Part shown: positions 2,205 through 52,876 of the stretch, piece by piece | How the letters are laid out: the number at the start of each line of letters is the position of its first letter | Numbering within the stretch: the first letter of the stretch is position 1 | NCBI RefSeq assembly: GCF_000189635.1 | Contig: NW_002476507.1 | Span: 186,001-250,000 of the forward strand | From: Tetrahymena thermophila SB210 | Lineage: Eukaryota; Ciliophora; Oligohymenophorea; Hymenostomatida; Tetrahymenidae | Direction of reading: 5' to 3' | DNA: 64,000 nucleotides | Notes under the pieces: generated by a model | The model's input: only the letters and a program-made list of their open reading frames with translations | Told to the model about the DNA's origin: nothing | The model's database searches: none | Position numbers and translations under genes: made by a program

Positions 2205-2391
2205 ATGCTTTAGATAGTAAGAGTTTTATATATTTTTTTAAACTATTTGTTAGTTCACGTGCTGGCAAATGTATCCTACATTATGCATCCAAATCCTGTA
2301 TCTTTGCTTGATTTTAAACAAAAAGCTTCTTCTGTTGCACTTCTTAATTGTGAGTCGGATGATGGCTTGTATGCTTTTGTGGCTTCAACTT

Positions 2392-2399
2392 ATCATGGA
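2392..2399 (+). repeat. Target-site duplication, left
   Basis: ATCATGGA directly precedes the element and is repeated at 2688-2695; the uninserted paralogue carries it once. Confidence 0.92.
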
Positions 2400-2687
2400 C
2401 AGTGATCCTAAAAAAATACTATTTATCGATAAATTTTATCGATAAAATTGTTATCAGTTTATCGATAATCTATTTAGAAAAAAATTTTTTTTTTCAGTTT
2501 ATCGATAAAATATTTTTAAAAAATAAAAAATTATCGGTTTACCGATAAATTATCGATATTTTAAATTTTTTTCATGATTTTATCGAACAAGAATTTTATA
2601 ATACATTTTAATTATTTACTTATCGATTATAAAAATTTTTTTGAGATATTATTCGATAATTATCGATTAATTCGATAAGGATCACTG
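2400..2687. mobile_element. hAT-like MITE with 10-bp TIRs and 8-bp TSD
   Basis: A 288-bp insert starts CAGTGATCCT (2400-2409) and ends AGGATCACTG (2678-2687), perfect inverted repeats. It is flanked by the direct repeat ATCATGGA at 2392-2399 and 2688-2695. The paralogue at 11824 has a single ATCATGGA at the same codon, which proves an insertion with an 8-bp target duplication. An 8-bp duplication and CAGNG-type ends are typical of the hAT superfamily; assignment to hAT is inference. The interior has many ATCGATAA/TTATCGAT motifs in both orientations and no coding capacity, so it must be non-autonomous. Confidence 0.9.
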
Positions 2688-2695
2688 ATCATGGA
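2688..2695 (+). repeat. Target-site duplication, right
   Basis: Second ATCATGGA, immediately after the right inverted end. The coding frame of exon 1 resumes at 2696 in register with the paralogue. Confidence 0.92.
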
Positions 2696-4340
2696 GTACA
2701 TATTGTTGATCTTCACAACTACTATATACCTTAAATAGTATCTGTAGCACCCTCTTAATATGCTTAAGGATGTAAAGTAAGCAATAATATCTTATTTATT
2801 GCTGATCAAAAGTAAGGCCTGGTTATCTACAATGTTTCTGACAAATAAAATCCTAAGCTAATATCTGTTACAGCATATACTCAGAACTCATTTAAACCTT
2901 CATATTAATATGTCTTACTTTCTTCTGATCAAAAATATATATTCTGCCTATCATATGGATTTGTCTTAACCTATGACATTACTGATCTAGCCAATCCATA
3001 GATCTTGCCATTCCCCTTAGGTAATATATTCTCTTCTCTTCATATAAATTTATTCTTTAAATGAATAAATAATAATGAATTACAAAATAATCTATGATTA
3101 GAGCAAAATTAAATTCTTAATATCAAATCAATAATTTTATTTAATGCTCATAATTTGTACTTGGGCTTATTTTTTTAATTTGAATTAATTATAATCATAA
3201 AAAACTTTATTTTTACTTATTTTAATTAGATTTTACTCTTGCTCCTAATAGTTATACCCTCAGATTTGATCCTACAATGAGGTTTATTGCTATTGCAAAT
3301 CATATATCAGGCGTTACTATTTTAGATATTAGTAATATAAATTAACAATATATTAGATGTATTTAAAATCCAAGTTTTGTTACTTGGGATGTGGCTTTTA
3401 CCCCAGATAAAAAAGCTTTTTATGCACTTGATGCATACTTTGGCCTATTCTATGCAGATCCATCTATATTATATGATGATTCTTAAAAAGGTAAAGTATC
3501 TTTGTCTTTTACTCTTGTTATTCCAGTTACAGATTCTTTAGTGATGACTATGGAAATTTCTTAAGATGGATCTTTATTATTTATTGGTCATAGAAGCACA
3601 GGAATCAAAATATATTAATTAAATAGCCAAAATTACAAATAACTTATTTTTATCCAAAATCTATAAGCTTCTTACATGGTTCTATGCATGAATCTTTCTA
3701 AAAATCAAAATTAATATATTTATGTGACTAATGGGATACAATTAATTATCTTTAAGCTTGTTTAACCTAATACAAATTAAGATTTCCCCAATTTATTTAA
3801 TACATTTTAATCATCCTTAACATTTGTGAGTCCTGATTAAAACTAACTTAGTATTTAGTGTACACAAAAGGAAGTTATGGTAACAGCTACTTCAGTAGGA
3901 ATTTTCATTTTCGACATAACTGATCCCTTTTATCCAAATTTATATGAAAATTATATTAAATAATCATAAACAAAGGGAACTATTTCGCTTATAACAACCA
4001 CTTTTGATTTTAATACCCTGCTTATTGCAAATTAACAAGGAGGCTTAGTAACATTTGATATTTCTAATAGATCAAATCCATAATATAAAAATCAATACTA
4101 ATTAATTTAAAATAAACAATCATACACAGAATATACAAGGTAAAAATTAAAATTTTTTCTATTTTAATTTAACTATCTTTTTAATTAATCTTTTTTAAAT
4201 AAAAAAGCGTTAGGATAAGTAAAGATGGTACAAAAGTTGTAGTTGGTAATAGTTTTTATGGTGTGTTAATCTATATGTTTGATAACCCATAAGACTTGTC
4301 ATCTCTAGTTCTTACAAATGGTTACGCAAATTAATACGCT

Positions 4341-4409
4341 TGTGGTTTTGAGAGATGTGATTTTACTTCTGATGCTACTAAATTTGTTTGTGCTTGTAGA
4401 GAAATAGGA
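4341..4409 (+). other. Conserved Cys signature in receptor copy 1
   Basis: Encodes C-x4-C-x10-C-x-C-[RK]-E-x-G within the LVIVD region. The same spacing is found at 13662-13730, 28950-29018, 36447-36515 and 44409-44477, so it is invariant in all five copies. In a secreted domain it probably forms disulphides; metal binding is possible. Confidence 0.8.
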
Positions 4410-6640
4410 ACTATTTTTTTCTAACTTTTACAGCCAGGTATAGATCCAATAGCTAAATATGCATTCAATGAGATAGCTGTAGAACAGGCTATTATTTCAT
4501 AAAATGATAAGTTATTATACTTAGCTAATGGGTTTTAAGGAATATTTATTATTGATATCACAAACTTTTTTGAACCAAAAAAATTAAGTCAACTTGTTCT
4601 CTAAGGTTGGGTATAATGGGTCACTCCTATTTTTAATGAAAAATATTTAATGGTTTCTTAAGTCGAAAAGGGTTAATTGAGTCTAGTCAATATTGAGGAT
4701 CCTGCAAACCCTTATGAGTAATAAAGAATAGAGTTTTTAGGTGAAAGTTCTACAGCTTCTTGTTTAAGCCCTTCTAACCCAACAAATTTATATTTTTTAG
4801 GTAAAATTTTCTTAATTTTTAAAAAAATAATTTAAAAATATTTAAAATTAGGAAATACTGGACTAAGATATGTTCCAATTTAACCATCGATAACTATGCA
4901 CACTTAGTTTTAAGTATAACAACTAGATAATAATGGTAATTTACTTTATTATTAGACATTAGAATAAGGAGCTTAATTGCTTGTTGGTTAAAACATTAGA
5001 ATAATTTATACTTAGCTCTATAATGAATAAAAAATTTAAGTCAATAATGCTTTTTATTATCGTTAATTTGGTAGATAAGCTCTTCCTCCATGGATTACTT
5101 TTTTACCTTCTCAATCTCAAATAATAATGGTAGTGGATAAGCTTGGAACTCTTAATGATTTCTCAACAGAAAAGAATGGTGAAAATATATTAATCTTATA
5201 GGTATAAGTCCAGCTATAATCCCAAAAGCTAATAAATAATTCGCTAAAAATTGATTAAACTCTTGCTTCTAGATTGCTTATTTTACTCGAATAAAATGGC
5301 TTTGTTGATGTTAATGGATATATAACAGAAAAATTTGATCCTTAAGTTCCATTTGATTTAAACTTTTATGATGGTGTGAATTACACTCCAACCACTCACT
5401 CTAGTGTGTATCAATAGATTCAACAGCAATTAAAAAAAATTTTAGCATTCTCAAAAGTAGAATATCCAATTAGGTTTTTTATAGTAAGTTCCTTAAAGTT
5501 TAATTACTCTTAGAAATTAAGATAATAGAATGCTTCAGACTCTGGCAGTGTCATTTCAACTCCATCTCAATAAGTGAGTATTCTAATGTAGATAACATCA
5601 AATGGGAAATTTGTCAAGAAAATATTTGAAGGTGTATTGGCTTCTTTTTCAGACGATTTAACAAGTGTTAAGATAACTGGTTAAACTTCATTTGTCAATG
5701 CTATCATGAACAATAGTATTTAAATAGCAAATTAAACACAAGACCTTTCATAAGTTGCAATAACATTCTTAATTTCTGATTCAAATAATTATGACTAAAC
5801 AATAAAAATCTCTCTCAAAGAAGCTGATTTTATTTAAATACACTAACCTGTTTAATTGAATGCAAATAAAACACTCTAAGGTCAACTTGAGAAGTATTAT
5901 TCAAATGGATAATTACCAATAGTAGATCGTTTCTAATTTTCTTTCGATTTAGAAACCTTTATCCAACCTGATGGGTTACCAATAACATACTCAGCATATA
6001 TTTTAAATGGAGACAATCCCCCATAGTAAATCTTAACAGGCTCTTGGATAGATTTTAATAATCTAAGCTTGGTAAATTATTTTAATAAATATTTTGCATT
6101 AATTATTTGTGAAAAAAAAGGGTTTTAGTGGGATAAGGACAGCATCGTATTTTTGGACAACTACAACTGTGAGAGTCATTGCTGATGACGGATATTCAAA
6201 AGCTCACTGCGATTTTAACATGACCTTTAATTAAATTCCCTTTTTTTATGCTTTTTAGCTAATAGTTTCAGTAGTTGGTCCTATTGTTGGTATTATTAGT
6301 ATTTGGAAATACCGCTCTGAGATTCATTTGTAATATTTTATTTAATTTTAATAAATTAATATAAAAAATTATACCTTAAAATAGATTTGTTTCAGAGAGA
6401 AAACACATGTACTAAAATGAAATTGCTGTGACTGGAGAACTCTTTAAGAAATAGATAATATTATATGGAAAAGTTTAATCAGATGCTTTAACCCTTTGGA
6501 AGATGTTAAGAAAGTAAGACAAATCTTTGAATTAATCTTTAAAGGATGAATACAAATTGAACCAAACAATAGATGTATACAATTTAGTCTCTAAACTTGA
6601 AAAGGTATATCATGAAAATACTAAAAAATTCCCTTACTTA

Positions 6641-6673
6641 GATCCAAGAGAATTTGATTTCCATGATAGCAGG
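6641..6673 (+). other. DPREFDFxDSR motif in receptor copy 1
   Basis: An 11-residue motif C-terminal to the membrane helix, present in all five copies (also 15961-15993, 31243-31275, 38801-38833, 46809-46841). It is the best conserved part of the predicted cytoplasmic region. I do not recognise it from a named domain. Confidence 0.8.
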
Positions 6674-8664
6674 TTAGTTAGATCTGTAAAAAGATTGGCT
6701 TATTAGGTTGTTTTAGACAATGATTAAACAACATTAGAAGTATTCGAAAAATTAAAGAAATTCTCTACAAAAAATTTTGGGTATCAAGACTGGTATAAAA
6801 AATATTTAGTCATATATCCAATAATGGAAATAAAGGGTGAAAAAGTTATTCATAGAGTTATCGAACAATAAGATAAGGTAAACGATTAACTAGAATCAAG
6901 AAGTTAGTTATTTAATGAAAATTTGATAAATAACTAGTTAAAAATTAAAGATTGTAATGTAGAAACTTTAAAGAAGATAGATTTAGATTTACAAAATGAT
7001 GAAAATAAACAAAATATGATTAGTGCAAATATTTAATCATAGATTTATTCTGGAGAGAATACTAAACGATTATCATAAAGAGGAAATTCTGAAAATGATC
7101 TTTGTTAAAAACTTGATACAGTTAAAACTTAAGGGAAAGAGTAGATTTACATAAATTTGAATCCTTTCCCAGAAATCTTCATAAATCAGTAAATAATTAA
7201 TCAGACTCTGTTAGATATTCGTTGCCAATTACAATATGATTTCAACTTACTAGCAGAGATTATTGCTCTTGAAGCATCAGGTGCTTTAACAGGAAATCCA
7301 AGTTCTTTTAATCCTTCATATGGTGAAAGCATTCATACAATTCCTTAAGAGCTTGACACTTTACAAGCTTTCTGTAAAAATAAGGTAAAAAACAAATAAA
7401 TAAATTATGAAAATTTATACAATTTTCTTTTCTTTTTTACATATAGGAAGATGGTTGTGGACAAAAAATTCTAAAATTTTTAAATATGTAATATTCTCCT
7501 GTTGGATTTGTTAAGAATAACCCTCTTCCTAAGTGGTTGAACTTTTAAATTATTGACGGAATAATTAATATATGGGGTATCCCCTAGCCAAGCGATGAGC
7601 CAGAAATACTTATTAGAATAATCAATGATTTAGGTTTAGCAATATACAGCTTCCACATATTCATTTAAGACAAAGAGGGTAACGATATGAGAAACAAACA
7701 AATCTTACGTAAATTCACAATTTAAAATAAACCAAATCAAAATAAATAAACTGGTATCACAAAAATGCATTCTTCTGTAAATATAATGTCATAACAATTT
7801 GGGACACCTTAAATAAAAAATACTATGAGTGCAAATAATGAATCTCCTTAAGCCAAAATAGTTTCTTAATAGCTTATAGGAACTAAAAGCTAATTTGCTA
7901 ATGAATAGACAAAATTAACTGGCTAGAATAGTCTCCCAAATTTCTAAGAGTTTTAGTTATGTTAGCTGCAAAAAATAGATGAAGAAAGACCCTCTGTTTT
8001 ATAATAATTTCACTCAAATATAGATGCTACTAAATTTGTTAAGCAAAATTCAAATCTAGAAAGTAACCTACCCCAAAAATAAATGGAATTAAAAGAAAAG
8101 ATAACTGAGATTAATTCTTCTGTAATTATAGAAATAGACTCAAATTTTAAAGAATTTAATGTAATTAAATTATTTTGGTTAAGTTAATAAAAATAATTTA
8201 TTTTTTTTTTGTTTATGAAAAAGGAGGTTGATAATGACAATTAAAATAAAGATATTAGAAAATCTAGTTATAAATTTAAACCATAATGATTCTTTAATTT
8301 ATATCAAATAGATTTTATATTGTAATATTTGTAAATTAAATACTTTTTACATTTAAATATTTACCCACCAAATTATGAAATCATTTAAGTAAAAATATTT
8401 TTGGATTTAAGTTTTTATAAAATTTTCACCAAAATTTATGATAAATAAAAATGAATTAAAAAAATGGCTTAGAACTAACAATTTCAAATATATTTTTATT
8501 TAATTTTAAACTCATTAATACCCAAACCACTAGATTTTAATTAGGCGTTTGGCTATACATTTTAAAGTACCAAATAATTGATTAATTTTTAATTTAATAT
8601 ACCATAAACTTGAACAATATTTTTGAATGTGAATACTTGTTTGATAAATAATATTGATTTGTAA

Positions 8665-8960
8665 TTTATATATTTCTATTAGTTTAGTAAACAATATTAT
8701 ACTGGCTAATTTTTCATAACAAATAAAATTTACAGAGGGCGATATAAATTATTATCTACATATTTACTTAAATAGCTTTCCTAAAAAAATATATATTTAT
8801 TTAAATAATTTCAAATACACTTGAAATAAATTCATTTTATATGTTAATTTTACTAAGCTTTCCTTACATACATAGGATTCATAAACAGAATATTAATAAT
8901 TTTTATTTTCTTTTAAATTTATTTGTAAAATTTTTGAATAAGGAAAAAACTATGGTCTTT
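8665..8960 (+). repeat. Upstream module, orphan copy
   Basis: Third copy of the upstream module, lying between receptor copies 1 and 2 with no receptor exon after it. It keeps ATACTGGCTAATTTTTC, a TTTACAGAGG block and the following TATTTACTT/AGCTTTCCT blocks, although TATCGAC has become TATCTAC. It looks like the leftover 5' flank of a deleted gene copy. Confidence 0.65.
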
Positions 8961-11389
8961 AAAAAATGTCCACACATTTATTGTTATCAGATTTAATAAA
9001 ATTATTCATAATATCTTAATAAGTTGGCATGACATTTGTAATTTTACTAAAATTTTGGTCCAGATAGAGGCCAATTTAAACAGTTTCTACTGTATCAAAT
9101 AATATAACACTTATTACCATGTTATCTTTTTATTTGCTTAATTTTTTAAAGGAAAAATTTAAAAATAAAATTATTAATCTGTTTTTCACTCTCACAATAT
9201 TAAAATTGAAATAAGATTAAATATTAAACCTTTTGATTTAATTGAATATAAAATCTATATTTTAAGGCAAATATGAAATCATTGTCTGAGTTATAATTAA
9301 ATATTATTCATGGTTATTTTTTTATTTAGATTTATTAGATTTTATTATTACAATATTTTTTGGTAAATAAATTCCCTAAAGAATATTGAATATTTCATTT
9401 TCTAGTATTAAAAAGCAATAGTTCTCATAAACTTATGTAAAACGATAAATCTAATAAAATTTAGTTTTTTAAGATATGCTGGATAACTAGAGTCATAAAT
9501 GCTGTCTAATAAATATAAAATTGAGTAGTATTCAAATGAAATTTACTCAATTTAATTTACTTGTATTTGAGTTAAAATTTACTTTTTATAATTGCTAATA
9601 ATACCAAACAATAATAAAAATAAATAAATATTTAAATACAAAATAAAAATTATTTTTTTTAAAAAAAATTATTTTATAATAGGAATACATTTTTTAAGTT
9701 TAAATTTGTGTATTTAATAAGTTCATTTTTGTATAGAAGGCAAGAAAATAAATAAACAAGATTCCTAAAACTTGATTTTTATTATTTTCCCTTAAATTAT
9801 ATATAAATATTGAACTTTTAAGAAAATAAATTGCTTTTGAATTAAAACTTTGGGTATATTGATTAATAAATCACCTCATATCAATTATACAAAACAATTA
9901 AATACAAGGAATTCTAATTTTAATATTATTTAATTTTTAAGCTGGTCTTTTTTTAAGAAACGTTAATTTAAATTATAGAGTTTTTTACCTTAAAATATTT
10001 ACATTTTATATGTATTTTCAATATTTTCAGGTAAATTTTTAAGTTATTTTTGTTTAAAAGAATTTTAAATATAAAACTAATTTATAATAACCATTTTTGT
10101 TTAAATTTGTGTATTTGATTTTTAAATATACAAAAAGTAATAAAAAGAGAGATTAATTAGTAGATTCTTTTATCTTAACAAAGATAGTAAAAAACCTTTA
10201 AAATGTATAAAATATACTTATTATTCATAAGTTTAGTTAAATATCCTTTAGCAATGATATCATTCTCCAAGTTATGTAAAAATAATTTTTTAATAAAAAT
10301 CAATAAATCTAAAAAATATACTCATAAATATACTATTTTACAAAATTTTTTATATTTAATTTCCTCTACCATATATATTTATTTACACATAAATTAATAA
10401 ATTGATCTTTCTAATTCAATAATATTAATGTAATGTATAACAAACAAGTTATCTATCAGATTAATATTTACATAATTAATTAAAATCATCTTTTTAATTC
10501 AAGGATTTCAAAAAGCATACAAAATATTAAATATCTTTTAAGTTTAGTGTAATCAATTTTAGAAAATTCAGATTTTATTATTTAGGATAAATTAAAACTC
10601 TTTCAATCTTCTCTTATCAATTTAAATATCAAAGTGTGTTTATATTTAACAAAGAGTTAACTTTTCTTATATTTGTTTTTTTTTTAAGTAATAGCATTAT
10701 TTTTAAAGAGTTTAAAAAGAAAAATATTTATTAAATAACTTATATGAAAATTTAGTATTGCAAAAAAATAAACTTAAAAAAAACAATTATTTGCTTTAAT
10801 GTTCGTTGTTAAAATTAATAAATTATTGTATAATTTTTTTTAAAATTGATTTATTTTAATGATGTTATTTGATTTTTTTTAAAATTTATGTAAATTATAA
10901 AAAATAACAATAAATCTAGATATTGATTTGTAAGCTAAAATAAAATCATCTATTTTTATGACCTTTTTATTTATTTAATTTTCTTTACGAATGTTACTTT
11001 TAATATAAAGGCAAAAGTCAATTTTTTTAAAAAAAATTCAACGTAAATTGCTTTATTTGTATTCATATAAATTTTTTTTAAAATTAATTAACTTTTTTTT
11101 CAAAAAAATTTTTTTTTCAATTTTAGACATGATTTTTGTTGTTTAATTTCATTAGAAAACACATTATGATTTTAATTAAAATATTAATTAATATTAGGAG
11201 ATAAATGAAAGAATATTTAAGAATGATTAATTACAAATATTTAAAATAATTGAAATAATATTATTTATTTGATTTATTTTTGGTGTATGTTACACTCTCT
11301 CTAAAGTATCAAACATGATTATTAATTTTACTTATCATAGACTTACTTAAAAAATATGTTAAAATTGTAATACTTTTAATTTCTACATT

Positions 11390-11680
11390 TTTATTAGATT
11401 AAAAAACAATATTATACTGTCTAATTTTTCAAAAACAAAGAGATTTTATATAAGGATAAAATAAATTCTTATCGACTTATTTCCTTTGGCAGCTTCCCTT
11501 AAAATATTTATTTATTTAAAATACTTGAAACACATTTTTAATACATATATTTGGTCTTTAAATATTTGTTAGGTTACTGTATATACAGCTTATAGACAGA
11601 CTATGATTTATTCTATTTTCTTTTAAATTTGTTACAAATCTTTTGAATATTAAAAAAATTGTGATAATAATAATCATTAA
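11390..11680 (+). repeat. Upstream module, copy 3
   Basis: Upstream module of receptor copy 2, with TATCGAC at 11470-11476, 354 bases before the start codon. It is collinear with 1745-2035. Confidence 0.7.
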
Positions 11681-11823: not shown

Positions 11824-14800
11824 ATGTATTAGATAGTAAGGATTATATTTATTTTTTTAAACTTTTTCATAGCTCACGTGCTTGCAAATGTTTCCAACAT
11901 TATGCATCCAAATCCTGTATCTTTGCTTGATTTTAAACAAAAAGCTTCTTCTGTTGCACTTGTTAATTGCGTATCGGATGATGGTCTCTATGCATTTGTA
12001 ACTTCAACTTATCATGGAGTACATATTGTTGATCTTCAGAATTACTACATACCTTAAATAGTATCTGTAGCACCCTCTTAATATGCTTAAGCATGTAAAG
12101 TAAGCAATAATATCTTATTTATTGCTGATTAGAAGTAAGGCCTGGTTATCTACAATGTTTCTGACAAATAAAATCCTAAGCTAATATCTATTACAGCATT
12201 TACTCAGAACTCATTTAAACCCTCTTATTAGTATGTCTTACTTTCTTTTGATTAAAAATATATATTCTGCCTATCATATGGATTTGTCTTAACCTATGAC
12301 ATTACTGATCTAGCCAGTCCACAAATCTTGTCATTCCCCTTAGGTAATATATTCTCTTCATATAAATTTATTCATTAAATGAATAAATAACAATCTATTT
12401 CAATATAATCAATGATTAAAGCTAAATTAAATTCTTAAAATCAAATCAATAATTTTATTTCCTTCTTCTAATTAGTACTTGGTTTTATTTTTAATTTTAA
12501 TTAATACAATGATAATAAAGTTTATTTTTAATAATTTTAATTAGATTTTGCACTTGCTCCTAATAGCTATACCCTCAGATACGATCCTTCAAAGAGGTTT
12601 ATTGCTGTTGCAAATCATATTTCAGGTCTTACTATTTTAGATATTAGTAATATAAATTAACAATATATTAGATGTATTTAAAATCCAAGTTTTGTTATAT
12701 GGGATGTTGCCTTTACCCCTGATTAAAAGGCTTTTTATGCACTTGATGCATACTTTGGCCTATATTATGCAGATCCATCTATATTATATGATGATTCTTA
12801 AAAAGGTAAAGTATCTTTATCTTTTACTCTTGTTATACCAGCTCCAGATTCTCTAGTTATGACTATGGAAATTTCTTAAGATGGATCTTTATTATTTATT
12901 GGTCATAGAAGCACAGGAATCAAAATATATTAATTAAATAGTCAAAATTATAAGTAGCTTACTTTTATCCAAAATCTAAAAGCTTCTTACATGGTTCTAT
13001 GCATGAATCTTTCTAAAAATCAAAATTAATATATTTATGTGACTGATGGAATACAATTAATTATCTTTAAGCTTGTTTAGCCTAATACAAATTAAGATTT
13101 CCCAAATTTATTTAATACATTTTAATCCTCCTTAACATTTGTGAGTCCTGATTAAAATTAATTTAGTATTTAGTGTACACAAAAAGAAGTTATGGTAACA
13201 GCTGCTTCAGTAGGAATTTTCATTTTCGACATAACTGACGCCTTTTATCCAAAATAATATGCCAATTATATAAAATATTAATAAACGAAGGGCACCATTT
13301 CGCTTATAACTACCACCTTTGATTTTAATACTCTGCTTATTGCAAATTAACAAGGAGGCTTAGTAACATTTGATATTTCTGATAGATCAAATCCATAATA
13401 TAAAAATCAATACTAACTAATTTAAAACAAATAATCATATACAGAATATACAAGGTAATATTTGAAACATTATTTTTTTTAATTTTAACTTAACTATCAT
13501 TTAAATTAATTTTTTATCAATTAAAAAGCGTTAGGATAAGTAAAGATGGTACAAAAGTTGTAGTTGGTAATAGTTTTTATGGTGTGCTAGTCTATATGTT
13601 TGATAACCCATAAGACTTGTCATCTCTAATTCTTACAAATGGTTACGCAAATTAATACGCTTGTGGTTTTGAGAGATGTGATTTTACTTCTGATGCTACT
13701 AAATTTGTTTGTGCTTGTAGAGAAATAGGAACTATTTTTTTCTAACTTTTACAGCCAGGAATAGATCCAATTGTTAAATATGCATTCAATGAGATAGGTG
13801 TAGAGCAAGCTATAATTTCATAAAATGATAAATTACTATACTTAGCTAATGGATTTTAAGGAATATTTATTTTTGATATCACAAATTTTTTTGAACCAAA
13901 AAAATTAAGTCAACTTGTTCTCTAAGGTTGGGCATAATGGGTCACTCCTATTTTTAATGAGAAATACTTAGTAGTTTCTTAAGTCGAAAAGGGTTAACTG
14001 AGTCTTGTCAATATTGAGGATCCTTCAAATCCTTATGAGTAATAAAGAATAGAATTTTTAGACGAATACTCTTCTGCTTCTTGTTTAAGCCCTTCTAACC
14101 CAACAAATTTATATTTTTTAGGTAAAATTTTCTTAATTTTTTAAATAATAATTTGAAAATATTTAAAATTAGGAAATACTGGACTAAGGTATGTTCCAAT
14201 TTAACCATCTATAACTATCCACACTTAATTTTAAGTATAATAACTAGATAATAATGGTAATTTACTTTATTATTAGACTTTAGATTAAGGAGCATAATTG
14301 CTTGTTGGGCAAAACATTAGAATAATTTATACTTAGCTCTTTAATGAATAAAAAATTTAAATCAGCAATGCCTTTTATTACCGCTAATTTAGTAAATAAA
14401 ATCTTCCTCCATGGATTACTTTTTTACCATCTCAATCTCAAATAACAATGGTAGTGGATAAACTTGGAACTCTTAATGATTTCTCAACAGAAAAGAATGG
14501 TGAAAATATATTAATCTTACAGGTATAAGTCCAGCTGTAATCCCAAAAGCTAATAAATAATTCACTTAAAATTGATTAGACTCTTGCTTCTGTATTGCTC
14601 AATTTACTTCAATAAAATGGTTTCATTGATTTTAATGGATATATTACATAAAAATTTGATCCTTAAGTTCCATTTGATTTAAACTTTTATGATGGCGTGA
14701 ATTACACTCCAAACACCCACTCAGGTGTATATTAATAGATTCAATAGCAGTTAAAAAAAATATTAGCTTTCTCAAAAGTAGAATATCCTATTAGGTTTTT

Positions 14801-21100: not shown

Positions 21101-22190
21101 TAAATAGTTTCTTGGAGACTTCACATGTGTTATATTTGATGAATTCTTTAAATACAGGTAATTCTTTAATTCAATTTAAACTTTTATACTTTAAAAAATA
21201 TTTATTTTAAATTAAATATTAAATTTTTGTAACATATGTTGAATTTTAATTGAAATTTTCAAAAGATAAACAAATTAAATCTTTAAAAAAGTTATGTTGA
21301 TAACTTTATTTAATTTTTAAAAAATTAGAAATAATTGGAATCAAATAGTTAATGTCATAGCTGAAATAGATTGTCTCATATCTCTTTCTCAAGTTTCCTT
21401 CCATGAAACTATGGTATAGAAACTGGGATTTATGACAAGACCTGTAATTGTTGATCAAAAATAAGATGAGAGTAATTACCTTAAAATTATCTAAGGAAAG
21501 CATCCTTGTGTGGCTCTGAAAAAATAATTTTAGGCCAATAGTATTATAATAAATACTTAACATAATAAAATTAACTATCCTAGAGTACAAATAATAACTG
21601 GCCCTAACATGGGAGGTAAATCAACAATACTGAGAAGTGCAAGCTTGATTGTTATTATGGCTTAAGTAGGATGTTATGTACCTTGCCAGTACTTAGAATT
21701 TTCTCCTTTTGATAGAATATTTACAAGAATAGGTATGAGAGACCTACTTTCTTAAGGTAAAAGTACTTTCTATATTGAATTAGAAGAAACATTATAGATA
21801 GTAAAGAATTCGAATCAAAACAGTCTGGTACTTATTGATGAACTTGGTAGAGGAACATCTACTTATGATGGTGTTGCTTTAGCTAGTGGAGTTTTACAGT
21901 ATATTATTGAAAAAAATAAGTCTTGCTGTCTCTTCTCTACACATTCTAATTTTCTTGTTGAGCAATATTAAAATAGCCCTATGGTAAAGCTATTCAAAAT
22001 GGGATATGAATTAGTGCCAAATGAAAAAAACTAAATCAAATTTACATACAAACTATGCGATGGATAAGTTGAGCAGTCTTTTTCAAGAAATGTTCTTGAT
22101 ATTGTTGGGTTTGAAAAATCTTTAATTTTTGAATCTCATTTTAGATCTTGCCTTATAAATTTATCATTAATGAATGCTTAAAATCATTGA
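18145..22190 (+). CDS. MSH6: MSH6-like mismatch-recognition protein (MutS homologue)
   Basis: DNA mismatch repair protein, expected to pair with MSH2 in the MutS-alpha heterodimer. Exons: 18145-20438, 20540-21157, 21329-22190; 3,774 nt, 1,257 aa. Residues 1 to about 310 are a charged, Gln/Lys/Glu-rich, probably disordered extension as in eukaryotic MSH6; I see no clear PCNA-binding box. The mismatch-binding Phe-x-Glu is present ([12 protein letters not shown]339-Y340-E341), followed by a GFPE motif typical of MSH6 rather than MSH2. The C-terminal ATPase has Walker [10 protein letters not shown] (about 1062-1070), the [12 protein letters not shown] Walker B/signature and STHSNFL. The protein ends soon after the ATPase and helix-turn-helix region. 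It sits between receptor copies 2 and 3 with no obvious functional link to them. Ciliates can have several MSH6 paralogues, so which one this is cannot be settled here. Confidence 0.93.
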
Positions 22191-23002: not shown

Positions 23003-24517
<1,515 letters not shown>

Positions 24518-25227: not shown

Positions 25228-25490
25228 GATAAACAAATTAATTCTTCTTCTTATTGTATTTTTGTTAAAATAATAGACTAACTGTGAGATATAATCTATT
25301 ATTCATCCTAATCCAATCTCTTTTTTAGATTTTAAAGAGTTAATAATAATATTTAAAAATATAAAGAGAAAGAATTTTATCTTGATTTCTAGTAAACATA
25401 TGAACCGAATTTTTTAGCAACTTAAAAAATACACTCAAACTCAAATGACTCTCCATTAAGCTATGAATGTTTGCTTTCTATGATAAAACA
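25228..25490 (+). pseudogene. Truncated 5' remnant of the LVIVD receptor family
   Basis: The frame starts with a hydrophobic signal-like stretch (MINKLILLLIVFLLKQQ) followed by SIIHPNPISFLDFKE, which matches the mature N-terminus of copies 1 and 2 (HPNPVSLLDFK). After this the similarity stops; the frame runs on with unrelated residues and ends at TGA at 25488-25490. No GT-AG combination I tried joins it to a family-like continuation. It is probably a decayed or partly duplicated gene start. A small unrelated secreted protein that reuses this 5' end is the alternative. Confidence 0.55.
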
Positions 25491-34472: not shown

Positions 34473-37400
34473 ATGATATTATTTTTTTATTTATTATTAC
34501 ATCTTCTTACTCAAATAAGTTGCTCCAGTTATGGATAATTTATAGTCCATCCTAATCCTTTGGTAGATTTTAATATGAAATAAATTATATAGAGTACAAG
34601 CCTTATGTTTTGTATTTCAGAAAATGAAAAAACAGTATTTATTGCTACTGGCTCCAATGGAATATAAATAATAGATGTTTCAGAAATGGCCAACCCTAGC
34701 ATAAAATCCAACATTTAAACAAAGCAAGCTTAACACTGCTAAGTTAAGAATAATACACTCTTTATTGCTGATTAATAAGAAGGATTAATTATTGCGGACG
34801 TGAGAAATTTAAATAACCCATATAGATTATCTACTACATCTATTCAAGCTGGAACTGCGCAGTCTTACTAATATGTACTTATAACTCAAGATATATAATT
34901 TGCATTTATTCTTTCGAATGGAAATCTTTTAACCTACTTTCTCAATGATTTATCAAACCCTAAATCTGTCTCCGTCAGCCAAGGTATATTTAAATACACA
35001 TAATATTATTTTTTTTGTAAACTTTACATTCTAACTCTAATTTCTACTTTTGAGCTAGCTTTTCTCAATAAATAAAAAAGTATAAATCAATGAGAAGACA
35101 TTTACAAATAAATTTAATTTTTATATGGAATAAGTTTTTTAATTCTTTTTTTATGAGACTTATTTAAAAATCTATTTAGGTAGCACTAGCCTTTCTACTT
35201 ATTCTTATAAAATGAGATTTGATCAAGCTTAATCGTATATAATATTATCCTGTTATGATCAAGGCTTACTTATTTTTGATGTAAGAAATGTGATATCACA
35301 GTAATTAAGGACAGTGGTTAATCCTAACCAGTTTATTGTTGATTGTGTATTTACTTAAAACAGCTAGGGTATTTATGCCCTTGATATAAACTCTGGCTTA
35401 TATTATGCAGATATTACTTAGTTAAAATCAATAGACTAAAATTAATCAACTAAAGCAAACCTTTCTTTTAGTAAAGTAAATTTAATATTATAGACTTAGT
35501 TTTTAACTATTTAATTGACAAATGATGGAAATTACTTGCTTGTTGGACTTAGAAGTGTAGGTTTACAGCTTTATTAAATAAACTAATAAGATTTTACTAA
35601 TTTACTTTATATACAGACGATACGAAATGCTAAATATATGATCATGGATATTATAGTCTCACCAAAAAATTCTTAATATGTTTTTATAGTGAATGGAGTG
35701 TCTTTGCTAATTTTTTAAACTGATCTACCAAATTTAAATCAAGACTTTCCTAACTTTTTTAATTAATTCTAATCTTCGCTGTAACATTCTCTAGAACAAA
35801 ATGTACTAGGTATGTCCTGCTTAGCAAATAATTTAATAGTAAGCTACCCAAAAACTTATGTAACCATTTATGATATTTCAACTGACCCTTACTCTCCTAA
35901 GGTTGTAAGTTAAATATAAAAAGTGCAAAACCCTTAAAATCCTTCTGATTTAAGCTAAAATTTCGATGATCTTAATTATATAGAAGTTTCATCTGATGGA
36001 AACACTCTTTATTTGTCATCTTCTAAATCAGGATTGATTACTTTTAGCATATAAGATAAGGCAAAACCTATTATGAAAAATAAGTATATTTATTAACAAA
36101 CTAGCGACAACGGTGGATCAACTATTTCGCTAACCTAATTTACAGCGTAAGTCATCCATTTATTTATTTACTATTTATTTCTTTGCGTATTTATTAATTT
36201 TTATTATTTTTAATGTGATGATTTGATAGCGCTCCTAAGTTAAGTATGATTGTATTTATTATAATTATATTCTTTTATTTACATTTGAAGAGTAATATTT
36301 ATAAATTATTTAATAGAACCAAACTATCTAGTTAGTAAGATTAAATAATAGCATCAAATAGTGTATATGGGGCAGTAATATTTAAAATATCAAATTCTGA
36401 TTAATTAAGCTTGGAATAATATAGAATTTTTTAAAATAAATTTGGTTGCACAGTGCAACGTTGCGATTTTACTTCAGATGGATAGAATTTGGCTTGTCCT
36501 TGTAAAGAAGTAGGGACTTTGCTTTTTGATTTAAAGGAATAATCTTAATATATATAGCCTAAACAAGTAATTTATTAAATTGGAGTTGAATAAGCAAAAA
36601 TTTCAGATGATGATAAATTACTCTTTTTAGCAAATGGTTTTTAAGGGTTAATCATACTAGATATTAAAAACTTTTTTAATCCAATTTAGCTAAGTGAGAT
36701 AATATTGGAAGGCTGGACATACACAGTTTACCCAATTTTTAACAATAAGTATATTATTACAACTTAAGTAGATGAAGGCTAAATTACTTTGATTAACATA
36801 CAAGATCCAAAAAATCCATATATTCAATAGAAAATAAACTTTCCTGGAGAAACATCAACTAATGTTTGTATCAATCCAAATAATCAAAAACATATGTATT
36901 TTGTTGGTAAAAATTTTTATTTCAAAGATTTTATTTTAATCCTGTATTTCATTTTATTTTTATTTATAATTTCTTTAATGAAAATTTAATTTAAAATGAT
37001 AAATTCTATTTAAAAAAGGAAATATGGGACTAAGGTATTTTCCTATCTAAAGCGATTTGAATATCCATTCACAATTTTAAGTAGCTTAGAATATTGGAAC
37101 TAATTTATTTTATTAAACTGTTGATCCTACATAAAAATTGCTCGTAGGATAACAAGTAAGAATTACGTTTCAATAACTATATGCCATAAACACTATCAAA
37201 ATAAACTCAGTTAAGTACTAGACTAATTTTAAGAAACAAAGCCTTCCTTCATGGATTAGTTTCAATTAAAAAGATAATTAAGTAAATATCTAGGTAAATT
37301 AATCAGGAATTAATCAAAATGGAGAAAATTTCATTATTTTAGAAATATTAAAGTAAATTTAGAGCTCTGATTTTATCTTAAATGGAATCATTGATAGCTA

Positions 37401-40400
37401 ATTTGCCTAATATTTATATATGTTGCTTCAAATTAATAATATAATTGACTAAAATGGCTATTTGAATGAGAGTTTTAACTCTTAATTGCCTTTTTAGATA
37501 AACTTCTACAATTCAGTTTATACAGAAGATTTATATAAAAATTATTTTACCTAGATTTAAAATTTAATTAAAAAGACTCTCGTATTTTCTAGAATAGACT
37601 ATCCTGTTAGGTTTTTTGTTGCCTCATCATTGGTTTTTAATTTTGATCTCAAGATACAAAATTTCAGATTTAATGACTCTACTTAAGCATCATAAAATTT
37701 TGTAATTTAATCTCTATCTGATAAAATAAACATCTAATTAAGCTTACTTCAAAATGCTTAATTCTAAAAAATTAAATTTGATTCAGTTTTAAGCTCTTAT
37801 TCTGAAGATCTTAGAACATTAAATATAACAGGACCTACATAGAATATCAATAATTTTCTAATAAATTACTTATAAATACGCAATTTGACTTAGAATATTT
37901 CTGAAATTATGATTTCAATTTAAATTCAAGATTACCTTAACAAAGATTAAGCTTATAACTTAAATTTAAATCAAACCAAGTTTATCCAGTTATACTAACC
38001 GATTAGCAGAAATTTAAGTAAAAGTCTTTAGAGCTAATTTGATTTTTTGTATCCTAGCAGCAGTGTTTATATATAGGAGAGCTTTACATTTTCATTTAAT
38101 CAGAATACATTCTTATTTAATAATCAGAGCTAAATTTAATATTAAGTATTAATGGGCTAAGATGATAGCAGCATGAAAGAAATATCAAATTATGACTGGA
38201 TTTAGTTTAATCCATTGAGCTTGGTAATTTTTTTATTTATAAATGAAAGTTATTTAAAGATTATTCAAATATAAATAGACGATTTATGGATAAGCCTCAA
38301 ATAACTAATTTTTATAGGACTATACAATAAAGGTGATTACTTTTGATCAATACACAAAAGCAGAAGATTAAATAGTTATTAAATTTAACAAAGTGCCTTT
38401 TATCTATGTATTTGAAATTGCATTTAAAATATTTCTTCCTATTCTATTTATTCTGATTGTTTGGAGTTACAAAATGTAGATTCACTTGTAAATTTTTTGT
38501 TTATTTAAATAAATAAATAATTTTTTTATTATTTAACATAAAAGTTTCATCTTGGAAAAGAATAATATCTACTAAACAGAAACAGCAATAATAGGAAAAC
38601 ATTTTGAAAAAAAAATAATTTTATATGGTAGTGTTTAGGCAGATGCTATAAAACTTTGGGAACTTTATAAAAAAAGAAATAAAGACATTGAGTAAAAAAT
38701 ATAAAATGACTACAAATAAAACAAACTAGTTGATATTTATGCCATATTAAAATAAATAGAAGTTATTTATTAATAGCTGAAATAAGAATTCCCTAAACTA
38801 GATCCGAGAGAGTTTGATTTTGATGATAGCAGACTTGTTAGATCAATTAAAAGACAAATTTATGAAATACTTTTACTTTAAAATCCTAGCACATTTTAGG
38901 TATACAAACTATTAAAAGACCATGCAATTTAAACAACGAAAAGAAGAAAAGACTGGTACAAATTATATCTTCAAATAAATAATTCTAATCAAAAATAAAA
39001 AGAAAGCCAAAATTAAGTAAAGAAAAATTTAAAATAAATATATGAATCTGAGAAAGAATAGTAAAGCTTTCCAAAAGTTAATCTATTTGATTAGATGAGT
39101 TTCTAACAGCTGAGATTAAGAGAGGTATATTCAAATCGAAAAATATAAATTCCTTAAAATAAAGATAAATTAGATTTATTTAGCACAACATAACTAAATA
39201 ATTCTGTTTAAGGCTAATCTCCCTAAAGTCCAACCAAAAAATATGAATAAAAGTAAAGTTTGTATAAGTATTTTAAAGACTAACAATCTTTTGAAAAAGT
39301 CCAACAAAGTTCTTAAGAAACTAACCATTTAAGTCCTTTTCCGGAGATTATGATTTATTAATCTGAAGTATCTAAAATATTAAAAAGTTTGAAATGTACT
39401 TTAAAGTATGATTTTAATTTGTTAGCTGAATACCTAGCTTTAGAGGCCTCAGGAACATTAAATAGTATTCCCAATCATTTAAATCCTTCAGCTGGAGAAA
39501 GTCTGCACCTGCATTCATATAATTTATCAGTTCTAAAAGCCTTTAAAAAAGACTAAGTAACTTATTCAATTTATTTTTAAAAATAGATAAATAAATAATA
39601 ATTTTATCTTTAGATATAGTTCTTTGTTATTTCTACTTCTTATTTTTAATAATTAAAATGCAATAATTGCTATGGATTGAAACTGTTATAAAATACGATT
39701 GTACAAATTTTAAAAGAGTTTTGAATTTCAAATGGGATCATTTTTATTTTCTAGTTAATTTTTTTAGTGATGTGTTTTAATTTAAACATTTTAATTAATT
39801 TAGAATTAAAGCTTGGCACATAAGATTAAAAATTACTTTAATTTAAGTTATTTTTCTATCGGACTATCATAAAATAATCCTCTGCCTAAATGGTTAAACT
39901 ATAGAATCATTGATGGTGTGATTTATTTATTTGGCTTTCCTGAAGCATGTGAAGAATCAGAAATATTAATCAGGATATTTAATAAAACTGGATTTTCTGT
40001 ATATAGCTTTCATATTAATATTAAAGATTAAAATGGAAATGATTTAATTAATTAGTTAAATCTAAAATAAACAACAACAATAAATTTAAACTCTAAAAAA
40101 GTCAAAATATAAAAAGCAATTCATTCTTCTGTAGTAGTTATTTAATAATAAGAAGAAGAAGATAATAATAAAAAAGAAATAATTTAAAAAAATAATGATT
40201 AGAAAACATAGATAGATAATTTATAAAAAGCTCCAAGCTTTTAATTTATTGACGAAGCAAAATTAAAGTTAGAATCTCCTACTAATGTTATTACTCTTCA
40301 GTAAACATAATAAAATGCTGAAAATACAAATATGTTATTTTAAACAGAATAATCTAAATAAAATGGTGCATGTAGATCAGCTTCTCTCTTTGAGGAAATA

Positions 40401-40618
40401 TAAAATGATAAGTCAGCTATTGATTTAGAAAGTAATAATAATTAAACTTTCTATTAAAATCATCTGTAAGAATCTTTTCTGATAAATGAGATAAACTAAT
40501 CTAAATAATAAGTAAGTTAATTTTTAAAAATTATTTTATACAATAAATACTTTTAATATTCAAAAAGATTGATTAAATAATTAAAACCTAAGAATTTAAA
40601 ACGAAATCTTAGAAGTGA
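34473..40618 (+). CDS. LVIVD/CADG membrane receptor, copy 4
   Basis: Fourth paralogue, 1,750 aa. Exons: 34473-34983, 35180-36146, 36317-36906, 37019-38223, 38279-38487, 38545-39556, 39804-40511, 40568-40618; sum 5,253 nt. Intron positions match the other copies, but several introns are longer (170, 112 and 247 nt). It has a signal peptide (MILFFYLLLHLLTQISC), HPNPLVDF, LVIVD-like strands (GIQIIDVSEMANP), the four-Cys signature (36447-36515), a membrane helix near 1131-1155 and DPREFDFDDSR (38801-38833). The C-terminal cadherin-like stretch is also present. The NPSYGES motif is changed to NPSAGES. The CADG-like stretch before the membrane helix is the least conserved of the family. The exon 7 acceptor at 39803 was chosen because it restores a column-for-column match to the other copies. 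Confidence 0.8.
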
Positions 40619-42444: not shown

Positions 42445-45400
42445 ATGAGGTTTGAAGCAATCAAAGTTACCTTTGTATTTATATTCTTTATTTAGCTTTT
42501 AGCTAGTATTTAAAGCTAATCTCGATAATACTCGATGGATCCCAAAGCCATCTCCGAATTAAACTTAAATTAACTATAAAAAGATAACAATGCGTTAGGA
42601 TTATGTATATCTAATGATGAAAATATCACCTATGTTGCAGGAGGTTAAGGCGGTCTTTTTGTTATTGACATCACAAATAAATAATAGACATATGTAGTTT
42701 CTTAAATATATACAAAATTCGCGATAAGTTGCTAAGTGAGAGGATCATATCTTTTTTTAGCTGATTTGTATGAGGGATTTTTTATTTATAATGTTAAGAA
42801 CCATTAATTGCCTTTAAAAGTTTCATAAATGGATTTTATTAAAAGCTTTTAATCTGTTTAGGTCACATAAGATGGACTATATGCTTTTCTATTGGCTAAT
42901 GGTTAAGTTTTTTCTATAGACGTATCTGATCCGAATAATCCAAAAATAGTTTCATCTTTCAGTAATATAAAAATAAAACAATTAGAATATATAATATAAA
43001 CCTTAAGTTTTGATAGATTATTTACTGATTAGATATAACACTTACAAATATAAAACTCAATTCTTCAATAAATAACAATATTTATTCATCATCTTTTTTT
43101 TATTTTTAAGTTCTAATGATCATCAAAAAGCATTTAAATACAGGAAAACAATAAAATTCCTCCAATTAATTTTACTTTTTATTTTATTATTTTTCTTAAA
43201 TAACTTTACTTGATTAAAAAATTAAATCACTGCTGATAATAATTTTTTAATTGAAAATAACTATTACCAAATTTATATTTAAATTTTAATTATTATAAAA
43301 AAGCATAGTTTTTATCTCCGAATTCATATAGATTAAGATTTGATATAAATGAAGAATACTTACTTGTATCTAATCACATGATGGGAGTTTAAATATTTGA
43401 CATTAGAGACAGAACCAATATTTAATTAAGACTCAATTAAAATCCAGCATTTGTAATTTGGGATTGTATTATGACATATGACAGATAAGCCTTATATGTT
43501 GCTGATGGTTTTTTCGGATTATTTTATGCACCAGTCTAAGGTTTACTTTCAATACCAAAATCATCTAACTAATAAGTCACCTTTACTTTTAAAAATTTAT
43601 TACCTGCACCATATCTACTATAATCATTAGTAATTACTAGAGATAATAGCTATATTGCACTAGGTTTTCGCAGTTAAGGATTAAAATTGTATGAAATTTA
43701 AAATGGCTAATATGATTAACTACAGTTTGTTTAGTAAATAGAAGGTAATATGTTTGCAAATGAAGTTTATTTTACAAAAAATTAAGAACAATATCTCTAT
43801 TTAGTAAATGGATATTCTTTCGTCATTTATCAATCAGTTATTCAAAATTTAAATTAAGATTTTCCAAATATATTTAATACATATTAATCTGCCCTTAGAC
43901 CACTAGTAAGTAGCTCATCTCCAACCCACAACTATTGCTTCCCTAACTAATAATATTACATCGAAACAAACTATTAATATGGTAATTCCATTTTATCAAT
44001 GGCCGATCCTTATAGTTTAGTATAAGTTGGTTTCATACCTTTTATTGGAGGCTTGATTGATGGTTCTCAAGCAAATAGTCAACTAACATATTTATTTGTT
44101 GCAATGTCACAAGTCGGTTTGGTTATTTATGATATAAAGAATATAGCCAACCCCTAACTAGTAACTATATATAGCCCTAAAGTATATATCAATCCTAACT
44201 AACCTCCATTATAAAATCTAATTATAAAGTAAATATCTAATTTAATTGTAATTTCATTTATATTTCCTATCTTTTTTTTTACAGCTTAGATTTAAGCTAT
44301 GATTAAAAGCTAGTTGTGATTTCTAATGGTTTCTCAGGAATTGTAGTTGCTGATGTAAGTGATCCAACTCATCCAGTCGATGGAGGCTATTACTCATAGC
44401 CTCACAGCTGTGGTTTCGAAAAGTGTATGTGGTTAAGAGACTCTATAAGAATTGTCTGCACCTGTAGAGAAACAGGAATTTTTTTTTTCTATTATTCCTA
44501 CACAACTAAAGCTTTAACACTATCAAATATACTTATTTCTGTAGGAACTGAAAGATTTAATTTCTCAAGCGATTAATCCAAAATATTTCTTGCAAATGGG
44601 TTTTAAGGAGTTGTTATAATTGATATAACTAACTTTGATAAACCTGTCATTCTAGGAAAAACAGTAGTAACTGGTTGGGTAGTAAGTCTTGATGCAATCT
44701 ATTCAGATAAATACTTAGTTATAGCTGAAAATGAAAAAGGTTAGATAGCTATTATTAATGTAGAAGACCCTACAAATCCTTATGTTTAGCAAAAATATTA
44801 GTTCCCAAACGAAAATGCATAAGCAATATGTGCAACAAAAGATTAGAAATACTCCTATTTCTCAGGTATTATTTTTGTTTCAATTTTTTAAATTTGAAAA
44901 TATGGTTTGATTGATCTTCCTATTTGTTTTTAATTAATAAAATTTTTTTATTCAACCATAAAATAAAAATAAACTTTCATGAAAGAAAATAAAAAATAAA
45001 TTTTATATTAAATCATATTTTAATTTTATAATTTAAAAAAAAGGTACACTAGGAACAAGAACAATTCCTTTGACTACGAACTTGAAGATTCATTCATAAA
45101 TTTAAGTGGTTCAAACAAATTAAAATGGATAAAACTTTTATTAAAGCTTAAATCCAGGTTAAAAATTGCTTGTTGGATAGCAAGCTATAATAACATTTGT
45201 TCCGTTGTATACTGAATTAAAAATAAAAATATAAAATGTTTACTACTACAGAAATTTTGAAATGAATACTCTTCCTTCGTGGATAATATTTTTAGAAAGT
45301 TAATCATAAATTTCAATGAATGTAGATAAATCTGCAACTCAGAATAACTTTTCAAATGAGAAGTAAGGTGAAAACATTTTAGTCTTAGATATATTAACTC

Positions 45401-48400
45401 AAATATAGTAAACTGACTTCAATCTTAATGCGAAATATCCAAACCTAGCTTAAGCTATATATAAAACTTTGTTAAATGAATAATATATTGACGCTCAGGG
45501 ATTTATAACTTCTAAATTAGATCCCAACATTGACTTTGAACTTAATTTTTACAACGACTCAGATTTAAAATAAACAAGTTTTACCTCAGATCAACAAAAT
45601 TAAATGCAGTATTAAATAAAAAAAAAATTAGTTTTTTCAAAGATCAGTTATCCTATTAGATTTTTTGTTTAATCCTCACTTAAATTTGATTACAATAATA
45701 ATTAAGGATAGATTATTCAAACACCTTCCCCATAAGTAAGTATTTTCTTTTAGATTTTGTAAAATGGAATATTCGTAAAGAAAACCTTTGAAGGTGTGCT
45801 TGCTTCTTTTTCAGATGATCTAACTAGTCTAAAGATATCAGGATAAAGCTCTTTTGTAAACTAGATTGTTTCAAAGAATTTATAGATTTCAACAAATTCT
45901 ACAGACTTTTAAAAAATTTTATTGTATATTGATCTATCTGATTCTGCTAATTTCGATATTCTTTAGAACTTAACACTAAGCTAGCTTACTTTTATTTCTC
46001 TTGTTTCACCTATATAATTAAAGACATAAAGTGATCTATAAAATCAATTCAACAGATATTACTCTGATTCTAAGGTGTATGTAGAAGAAAGATTTTCTTT
46101 TTCTTTTGACATGGATACATTTACATAAAAAGACGGGCTATAATTAACTTACAAAGCCTATTGGGTAATTTCTGAAACAAATTTATAACTTATAACTAGT
46201 GGAGATTGGATTGAATTTAGTGAATTTAGCCTGGTAAAAATAAAATAAAAAAAGTATTTATAATATTAAAATTTTTTATTTAAATAGAGTTTCAGTGGTT
46301 AGAGATCAGCGTCTTATTGGTTAAGTAAAGCAAGAATAAGAGTTATTGCCACTGATGGATACACTTCTGCTTCTAATGATTTTGTTATATACTTTGCTTC
46401 CCTTCCTTTCTTATATGTTTTCTAATTCATCATTTAGATCTTAGGTCCAATCCTAGGTGTCTTAGGTATCTATAAATACCGCTTTTACATTCATCTGTAA
46501 ATTATTTTTTTTTTCATAAATTTTAATTAAATATTTATGAATATTTTTTTAGATGCTTATTCGAAAGGTATTTGATGCATAACTAAGAAGTAGCTGTTAT
46601 AGGAAAAACGTTTTAAAAATAAATTGTACTGATAGATGAAATAACTGATGATGTACTTGATATATGGAATAACTTTCTCAAGTAAAATAAATTCTTCAAG
46701 AAATAGCTTGTTTCTGAATACAAATCATCTAAGAAATTTGATTTTAAATTAATTATTTCTCAATTACAATAACTGTACACAATTAATTAAAAGAAATACA
46801 AAAATATAGATCCTCGAGAATTTGATTTCGATGATAGTAGGACAATAAGAATAGTCAAGAAACTTATTATTAATGTTTTATTAGAGGAATATAAAATCAC
46901 AAAAAAATTGTATGAAAAAGTAGTAAAATTTGCTAAAAAGAAGTAAGGAAGAAATGACTGGTATAAATACTACACTAATATCATTCCTACAATGTAAATA
47001 AAAGATAACAACTTGGTTATAAAAAAATCAAATCCTAAAATCAATGAATTAAAAAAAGAAAATGGATAAAGCGAAAAAATTATTACATAAACAAAGATTT
47101 TTGTAAGTGATAATAATATATAAGAAAGAAATTCAAATTATAAATAATGCTCAATAGCAGAAATTTAAAAATAACTACTCAAAGCTGAAGATATCCAATC
47201 AGTGAATAAATTTTAATCAAATTGTTAAATATCAAATGAAAAAATAAATTTGTACAGATAAGATGAATAGTTAAAATATAATACTCCTTAACCTAAATAG
47301 TCAAATAAAAATGAAAGTGAACATATAGATATTATTTTAGATTAAAGTGATGAAGACATAGAAGAAAAGTAATAAAGTTCTTTTTCTGATGATGAAAACA
47401 GTGATGAGATTTAAAAAGGATATCACAATTTAAATCCATTCCCTTAAATAGCTATTATATAAGACAATTTAGTTAAGGCGATAACATAAATTCAATTTAA
47501 TAAAAGCTACGATTTGTATTTAATAATAGAGTTGATCATTCTTGAAGCTAGTGGTATAATCACTTGTTCAAGAAATATTTTCAATCCATCTAAAGGAGAG
47601 AGTCTTCACGTTTTTCCACATGAACTTAATAGCTTATAGGCTTACAGAAAAGATGAGGTATTTTTTTTATTCAATATCTAAGAATTATAAAATTTATTTA
47701 AAACAAAAAGAATTAATTTTGCCTTTGCTTGATGAACATATTTAATATGAGCTACACTCCAATAGGTTTAACCATAAATAACCCTCTTCCTAAATGGTTA
47801 AACCACTAAATTGTAGATGGTATTATACATATTTGGGGAGTGCCTAAGATTAACGATGATCCTGAAATACGTATTAGAGTGATAGATTAAAATTAAATTA
47901 CCATAAGGAGCTTTCATATAGTTATATAAGATGAGAGAGGAAACGATCTTAGAGATAAAAACTACTTAAAGAAAGCTCATGCCATGATAAAAGAAGCTAA
48001 GCAAAAAAGAAGAATAATTAATAAAATAAATTCATCTAATAATATCTAATTAAAAGGAAATTAGATTACTTCTCATAGCATAATAAAAGATAATTAAAAT
48101 TTAAAAAATTAATAAACATCTGAAAGACAAGAAAAAGTATAATTTAAATTATCTGAAGCAAAAATAGATTGCCAATAAAGTCATACTAAATTATAAGATA
48201 ATTAAAAAGTTGAATATTAAATAGAGTTAAATCATCAAACAAATATAAATTAAAGAAATTCCGTAGAGGATTCTTTGGTAGCAGAAAACTAAATATAAAA
48301 CGAAGTTGAAGAAAATGTAAATTAAATTAGCAAATTACTTCATATTTAATTATTTAATTTTTTATTTAGCAAAACGATATTGAAAAACAATTAAAGATCT

Positions 48401-48447
48401 ATCAAAATCTCACTAGAAAAGAAGGAACCTTAGTCAAGAATTTTTGA
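42445..48447 (+). CDS. LVIVD/CADG membrane receptor, copy 5 (most divergent)
   Basis: Fifth paralogue, 1,736 aa. Exons: 42445-42961, 43304-44228, 44285-44865, 45044-46233, 46288-46496, 46553-47657, 47711-48316, 48370-48447; sum 5,211 nt. The first intron is long (342 nt). It has a signal peptide (about 1-24) but lacks the HPNP motif, reading YSMDPKAISELNL instead. Kept features are GLFVIDITN-type strands, the four-Cys signature (44409-44477), exon 5 at exactly 209 nt, a membrane helix near 1111-1134, DPREFDFDDSR (46809-46841), NPSKGES and a C-terminal PLPKWLN cadherin-like start. The region between the motifs carries an extra acidic stretch (DEDIEEKQ) absent from the others. The exon 7 acceptor at 47710 is the least certain boundary. 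Confidence 0.78.

Positions 48448-51065: not shown

Positions 51066-52876
<1,811 letters not shown>

Follow-up and report, generated by a model that had tools for sequence, protein, structure and literature searches.

We analysed a 64-kb window of the Tetrahymena thermophila SB210 genome (C65:186001-250000, in a genome of 101 Mb and 445 contigs; coordinates without a contig prefix refer to the window) that carries a tandem array of large genes on its plus strand. The array is predicted to encode type I membrane proteins, most likely receptors or adhesion proteins at the ciliate cell surface, a reading to which we give about an even chance. In the best-supported reading, these single-pass proteins with LVIVD repeats and CADG-like segments represent a large ciliate family, undescribed as far as we searched. 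To our knowledge, it is poorly known how a free-living ciliate cell senses its surroundings or adheres to them. The window contains five genes of the array, c1 to c5 (positions 2205-48447; Table 1), which were reconstructed using a small gene finder, with copy 1 as its training set, and manual splice checks, including a revised intron 2 acceptor in c4; reading TAA and TAG as glutamine (NCBI code 6) is required for open frames. Together with this code, the size of the genome and the style of its introns would fit a macronuclear genome of the Tetrahymena type. A genome search using three exons of copy 3 (6, 4, and 2) identified at least four further copies upstream on the same contig (u1-u4, with exon 2 matches at C65:156335, 163882, 171391, and 179150, and exons 4 and 6 matched too), which brings the array to at least nine copies. 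Thus, the five members counted by a first-pass annotation of the window are an edge effect, and an array of five genes without interruption is ruled out by these further copies and by the MutS-type and SRP54 genes located inside it. The same annotation described five full-length genes and one 5' remnant on one strand: all five models lie on the plus strand, the assembled copy 1 is not intact, and the remnant is present with weak statistical support (tblastn search covering the masked window and the next 20 kb downstream).

The five gene models share an eight-exon structure with intron phases 1, 2, 1, 0, 2, 0, and 0. Introns 1 to 6 fall into the same alignment column across c1-c5, except for intron 1 of c5, which is one column off, while intron 7 sits in a poorly alignable part of the tail and keeps its phase, which agrees with the seven common intron positions and phases initially noted. 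All 35 introns, leaving the c1 element out of the count, start with GTAA or GTAT. The end of a CADG-like segment and the membrane helix are encoded by exon 5, whose length is 209 nt in 5/5 window copies. Exon 2 measures 910 nt in c1-c3, and c1 and c2 agree in the length of all eight exons when the c1 element and one of its target duplications are not counted. In a phylogenetic tree of the best 30 of 76 exon 4 matches, the 13 genes with a 209-nt exon 5 constitute one clade (100/98). A script check of these loci returned 209 nt in 12 out of 13 (with an alternative of 217 nt also in two); it gave nothing at exon 5 of the thirteenth, c4, for which the gene model gives 209 nt. Exon 6 is a single open frame in all 13 clade members, which rules out a split of this exon in the relatives on C327, C160, and C363. 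Automatically built models of u3 and u4 repeat this exon series, barring spurious extra splits (the start of u3 is outside the fetched stretch). Outside the clade, the frame continues past the exon 5 region in 17/17 loci examined, and in 12 of them it is open across the whole 4-kb fetched stretch. Thus, the fixed introns are a property of the 13-gene clade, and the constant exon 5, first annotated for every copy, holds within this scope and not in the distant loci examined.

The type I topology of the array proteins is supported by hydropathy: the five copies each possess a hydrophobic N-terminus as a predicted signal and one strong membrane helix at approximately 1112-1153, after which basic residues follow (WKYR in c1-c3, YKYR in c5, and SYKM in c4). 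Most copies, not including c4, have the helix motif GP..G..G.WKYR. Additional hydrophobic stretches were detected in the c5 tail (1462-1480) and, one each, within the propeller region of c2 and c3. The LVIVD profile matches all three scanned copies at E ≤ 1 in Pfam, and in c2 it scores 41.9 bits versus a cut-off of 20.2 (E 6.3e-11); judging from the repeat count, the LVIVD repeats probably form two seven-bladed propellers. Structure prediction, which the first-pass annotation had suggested as a check, covered exon 4 and the tail: exon 4 (pLDDT, the predicted local distance difference test, 78.7) encodes two probable immunoglobulin (Ig)-like beta sandwiches, of which the first contains a helical insert, and the tail includes a confidently predicted helical domain carrying the invariant motif DPREFDF..DSR. 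No recognised enzymatic domain was found in exons 6 and 7.

The CADG-like segments were traced with the He_PIG profile (PF05345), which has no match at E ≤ 1 in the three full-length window copies and matches one of five exon 4 pieces (E 0.026) and none of five exon 7 pieces from the window. Among the genome matches listed, He_PIG exceeds the Pfam cut-off at two places, in loci of the wider superfamily on C279 and C114, both in the pre-membrane position. L051, L053, L063, L065, and L066 have sub-threshold matches in the post-membrane segment, close to where the fetched frame ends; L064 has one at exon 4, and L052, L055, L058, and L062 have no match. A CADG-like segment also lies after the membrane pass, on the predicted cytosolic side. 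The initially proposed combination of LVIVD repeats, one CADG-like module and one membrane pass is present, with the single module replaced by several Ig-like or CADG-like segments. The initial statement that no characterised receptor matches these proteins still stands, since a profile of the three full-length copies has no PDB sequence at E ≤ 0.1 and a search of the open-licence literature for LVIVD together with ciliates gave no such paper, none of the LVIVD papers being on ciliates by title.

The search with copy 3 exons revealed close relatives on C122, C327, C160, and C363. In the exon 4 tree, the nine array copies do not form a single clade, as the C122 gene groups with u1/u2 as their sister (100/99). 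Either this relative (C122:134198-138701) is a copy that left the array, or its contig and that of the array are neighbours in the germline. Two genome searches, merged by position, give the superfamily at least 116 loci, spread over 47 contigs; both searches found 51 of these. This count is a lower bound, some matches being partial, and the second search used a distant member as query. The order of parts is unchanged in the full-frame members. No published description of the family was found in the open-licence literature for Tetrahymena in combination with cadherin-like, dystroglycan, beta-propeller or cadherin domain. A candidate link to a paper on Tetrahymena mucocyst docking was dropped, as in the text available the word dystroglycan occurs only in the reference list (PMC9159632). 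The available part of a Stentor paper mentions one anterior-enriched cadherin-domain gene (PMC13291615).

The array copies range widely in divergence. Protein identity is 91.5% between c1 and c2, about 58% between c3 and c1/c2, and 34-40% between c4 or c5 and the other copies; the near identity first ascribed to c1 and c2 is thus overstated, and the strong divergence of c5 is borne out. The ratio of nonsynonymous to synonymous substitution rates (dN/dS) for c1/c2 is 0.217 overall; by region, it is 0.191 for exons 1-3, 0.174 for exon 4, 0.226 for exon 6, and 0.314 for exons 7-8, and exon 5, which offers few sites, gives 0.092. For exon 4, the u3/u4 pair has a ratio of 0.080 (dS 0.19) and u1/u2 one of 0.119 (dS 0.74). 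The remaining pairs among c1-c5 are saturated (dS ≥ 1.55) and hold little information on selection. Diversifying selection is therefore not supported in the three pairs of low or moderate dS, although the whole-gene average leaves room for a few positively selected sites; selection for ectodomain diversity in particular is not supported by the c1/c2 pair, in which exons 1-4 have lower values than exons 7-8.

The sequences support tandem birth and loss of copies by exchange, under constraint rather than diversification, because there are recent pairs (c1/c2, and u3/u4 with 90.4% identity across a 4861-column alignment), the 5' stub, a copy struck by an inserted element, and a further upstream segment; here the first-pass proposal of a birth-and-death family fits. 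The segment in question, of 300 bp, has a third copy between c1 and c2 (8646-8948), in addition to those upstream of c1 (1731-2029) and of c2 (11374-11658), and may be a trace of a lost array copy. Overall, c1 and c2 have about 2 kb of upstream sequence in common. Gene conversion is not needed to account for their similarity, because the introns are 88.0% identical (543 sites), three flanks 77-86%, and dS is 0.18; ordinary recent duplication is enough.

The element in exon 1 of c1 resembles a miniature inverted-repeat transposable element (MITE) and is flanked by an 8-bp target duplication, ATCATGGA (2392-2399 and 2688-2695). The c1 frame meets a TGA two codons into the element, and this in-frame stop is why c1 is not intact as assembled. 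One further relative was found in the genome, a 470-bp version at C443:156721-157190 with the target duplication CATAGGAG, which is also inserted into an open exon; the translation of its host gene resembles leucine-rich repeats (LRR) by eye. Both copies are in phase 0 inside coding exons, and in both, splicing at an internal GT...AG would leave an in-frame addition of 18 nt. It is possible that this low-copy sequence is an intron-like element or an eliminated sequence kept in the assembly; for c1, splicing, excision from some chromosome copies and inactivation of the gene are all conceivable.

From the architecture of the array proteins, we infer a role in recognition or adhesion. The LVIVD repeats would fold as two ligand-binding seven-bladed beta-propellers, the Ig-like and CADG modules would serve as a stalk, the conserved membrane helix, with its glycine motif in most copies and not in c4, might pack with partners, and the helical domain of the tail would draw in a cytoplasmic partner via the DPREFDF motif. 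Copy number would shift by unequal exchange and selection would hold the surviving copies nearly constant, so that they would resemble distinct receptors or separately expressed paralogues rather than a rapidly changing antigen set. In its most specific form, the proposal is of more than 100 integrin-alpha-like receptors with tandem propellers, an Ig-like stalk, a single pass, and a private helical signalling tail, maintained in constrained tandem arrays as a large fixed repertoire per cell, which we offer tentatively as possible rather than probable. If the receptor reading is right, the family would provide a tractable receptor system, in which a common helical tail motif would let a partner be sought for many genes at a time, and a eukaryotic propeller/Ig receptor plan outside integrins.

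Several other functions were considered. The strong constraint on the ectodomain would be expected for unchanging cargo no less than for unchanging ligands, and a propeller, a single pass and a conserved tail also make up the sortilin plan; the array might thus encode VPS10/sortilin-like, unrelated sorting receptors of the endomembrane system, with the propeller binding lumenal cargo (for example, of secretory granules) and the tail binding trafficking machinery. This appears rather doubtful, as no sortilin or VPS10 profile was detected in three copies at E ≤ 1 in Pfam, and at least 116 loci would seem many for cargo receptors. Structural proteins of the pellicle, alveolar sacs or ciliary membrane coat, in which propellers and Ig-like modules form a lattice without ligand signalling, would agree with the many copies, the strong conservation and the lack of a recognised enzymatic domain in exons 6 and 7; we find this unlikely, given a confident helical tail domain with an invariant motif that seems more than an inert anchor needs. 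A family of variable antigens or recognition proteins shaped by diversifying selection would suit the tandem array, graded divergence and remnants; it is very improbable at dN/dS of 0.08-0.22 in the three pairs of low or moderate dS.

Table 1. Array copies and other features of the window
Feature	Position	Strand	Exons	Evidence or remark
Copy 1 (c1)	2205-8289	+	2205-2399 + 2696-3020 (one exon, split by the element), 3230-4139, 4208-4800, 4852-6071, 6121-6329, 6385-7384, 7447-8160, 8224-8289	Gene model, code 6
Copy 2 (c2)	11824-17604	+	11824-12343, 12545-13454, 13529-14121, 14173-15392, 15442-15650, 15705-16704, 16763-17476, 17539-17604	Gene model; 1743 amino acids
Copy 3 (c3)	27120-32811	+	27120-27633, 27858-28767, 28817-29409, 29463-30667, 30723-30931, 30987-32001, 32057-32704, 32761-32811	Gene model; 1714 amino acids
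Copy 4 (c4)	34473-40618	+	34473-34983, 35180-36146, 36317-36906, 37019-38223, 38279-38487, 38545-39556, 39804-40511, 40568-40618	Gene model; 1750 amino acids; long branch in exon 4 tree
Copy 5 (c5)	42445-48447	+	42445-42961, 43304-44228, 44285-44865, 45044-46233, 46288-46496, 46553-47657, 47711-48316, 48370-48447	Gene model; 1736 amino acids
c2, most of LVIVD/propeller region	12545-14121	+	2-3	Pfam LVIVD; iterated repeat profile
c2, two probable Ig-like beta sandwiches, first with helical insert	14173-15392	+	4	AlphaFold; structural comparison
c2, second half of pre-membrane CADG-like segment and membrane helix	15442-15650	+	5 (209 nt)	Gene model; hydropathy; He_PIG in two relatives
c2, predicted cytosolic tail: helical domain, low-confidence linker, second conserved stretch, CADG-like segment	15705-17604	+	6-8	Structure prediction of the helical domain
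MITE-like element, 288 bp, in c1 exon 1	2400-2687			10-bp perfect terminal inverted repeats
5' remnant: signal-peptide-like start and IIHPNPISFLDFKE	25226-25339	+		Weak; tblastn E 0.02-0.05
MutS-family gene, between c2 and c3	18145-22190	+		Pfam MutS_I, MutS_III, MutS_V
SRP54 gene, between c2 and c3	23003-24517	+		Pfam SRP54, SRP_SPB

Downstream of the array, the window contains a ribonuclease HII gene (51818-52873; Pfam E 8.2e-46), a 984-codon open frame on the minus strand (58181-61135) with no Pfam match at E ≤ 0.001, in part of which a cyclic-nucleotide-binding domain was suspected by eye and not confirmed, and a RAD51/DMC1-like gene, recognised by eye, that extends over the window end (63143 to C65:250681).

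Among known systems, integrin alpha is the nearest analogue in shape. Its plan consists of a beta-propeller head, an Ig-like sandwich stalk, one membrane pass, and a partner-binding tail, and the array proteins have their predicted parts in a like order, a comparison meant only in the sense of working alike. Unlike integrin alpha, the array proteins have LVIVD repeats, probably two propellers, and a long conserved tail; the FG-GAP profile has no Pfam match at E ≤ 1 in three copies, and no PDB sequence relative at E ≤ 0.1 accompanies the comparison. In contrast to dystroglycan-type CADG/He_PIG proteins, the window copies are sub-threshold for the profile, have a probable propeller ectodomain, and carry another such segment after the membrane. 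With the LVIVD-repeat surface proteins of archaea and bacteria (PF08309), the array proteins have in common an LVIVD profile above cut-off; they differ in adding a helical tail, a signal peptide of eukaryotic type, and CADG-like segments. The term LVIVD occurs in the abstract and text of a 2004 study of repeats in cell-surface proteins from archaea and bacteria (PMC2447325). As described in the accessible portion of the source, the Tetrahymena LRR families with 90-bp exons are, like the array family, large and tandemly duplicated with fixed exon lengths and phases (PMC6564038); however, their exons are within-gene repeats separated by phase 2 introns, whereas the array has one constant exon 5 per gene in a clade of 13. 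The immobilization antigens of Ichthyophthirius, compared by description from the available text, likewise form tandem arrays with pseudogenes (PMC3341644), whereas the array proteins are predicted to span the membrane and have a conserved tail.
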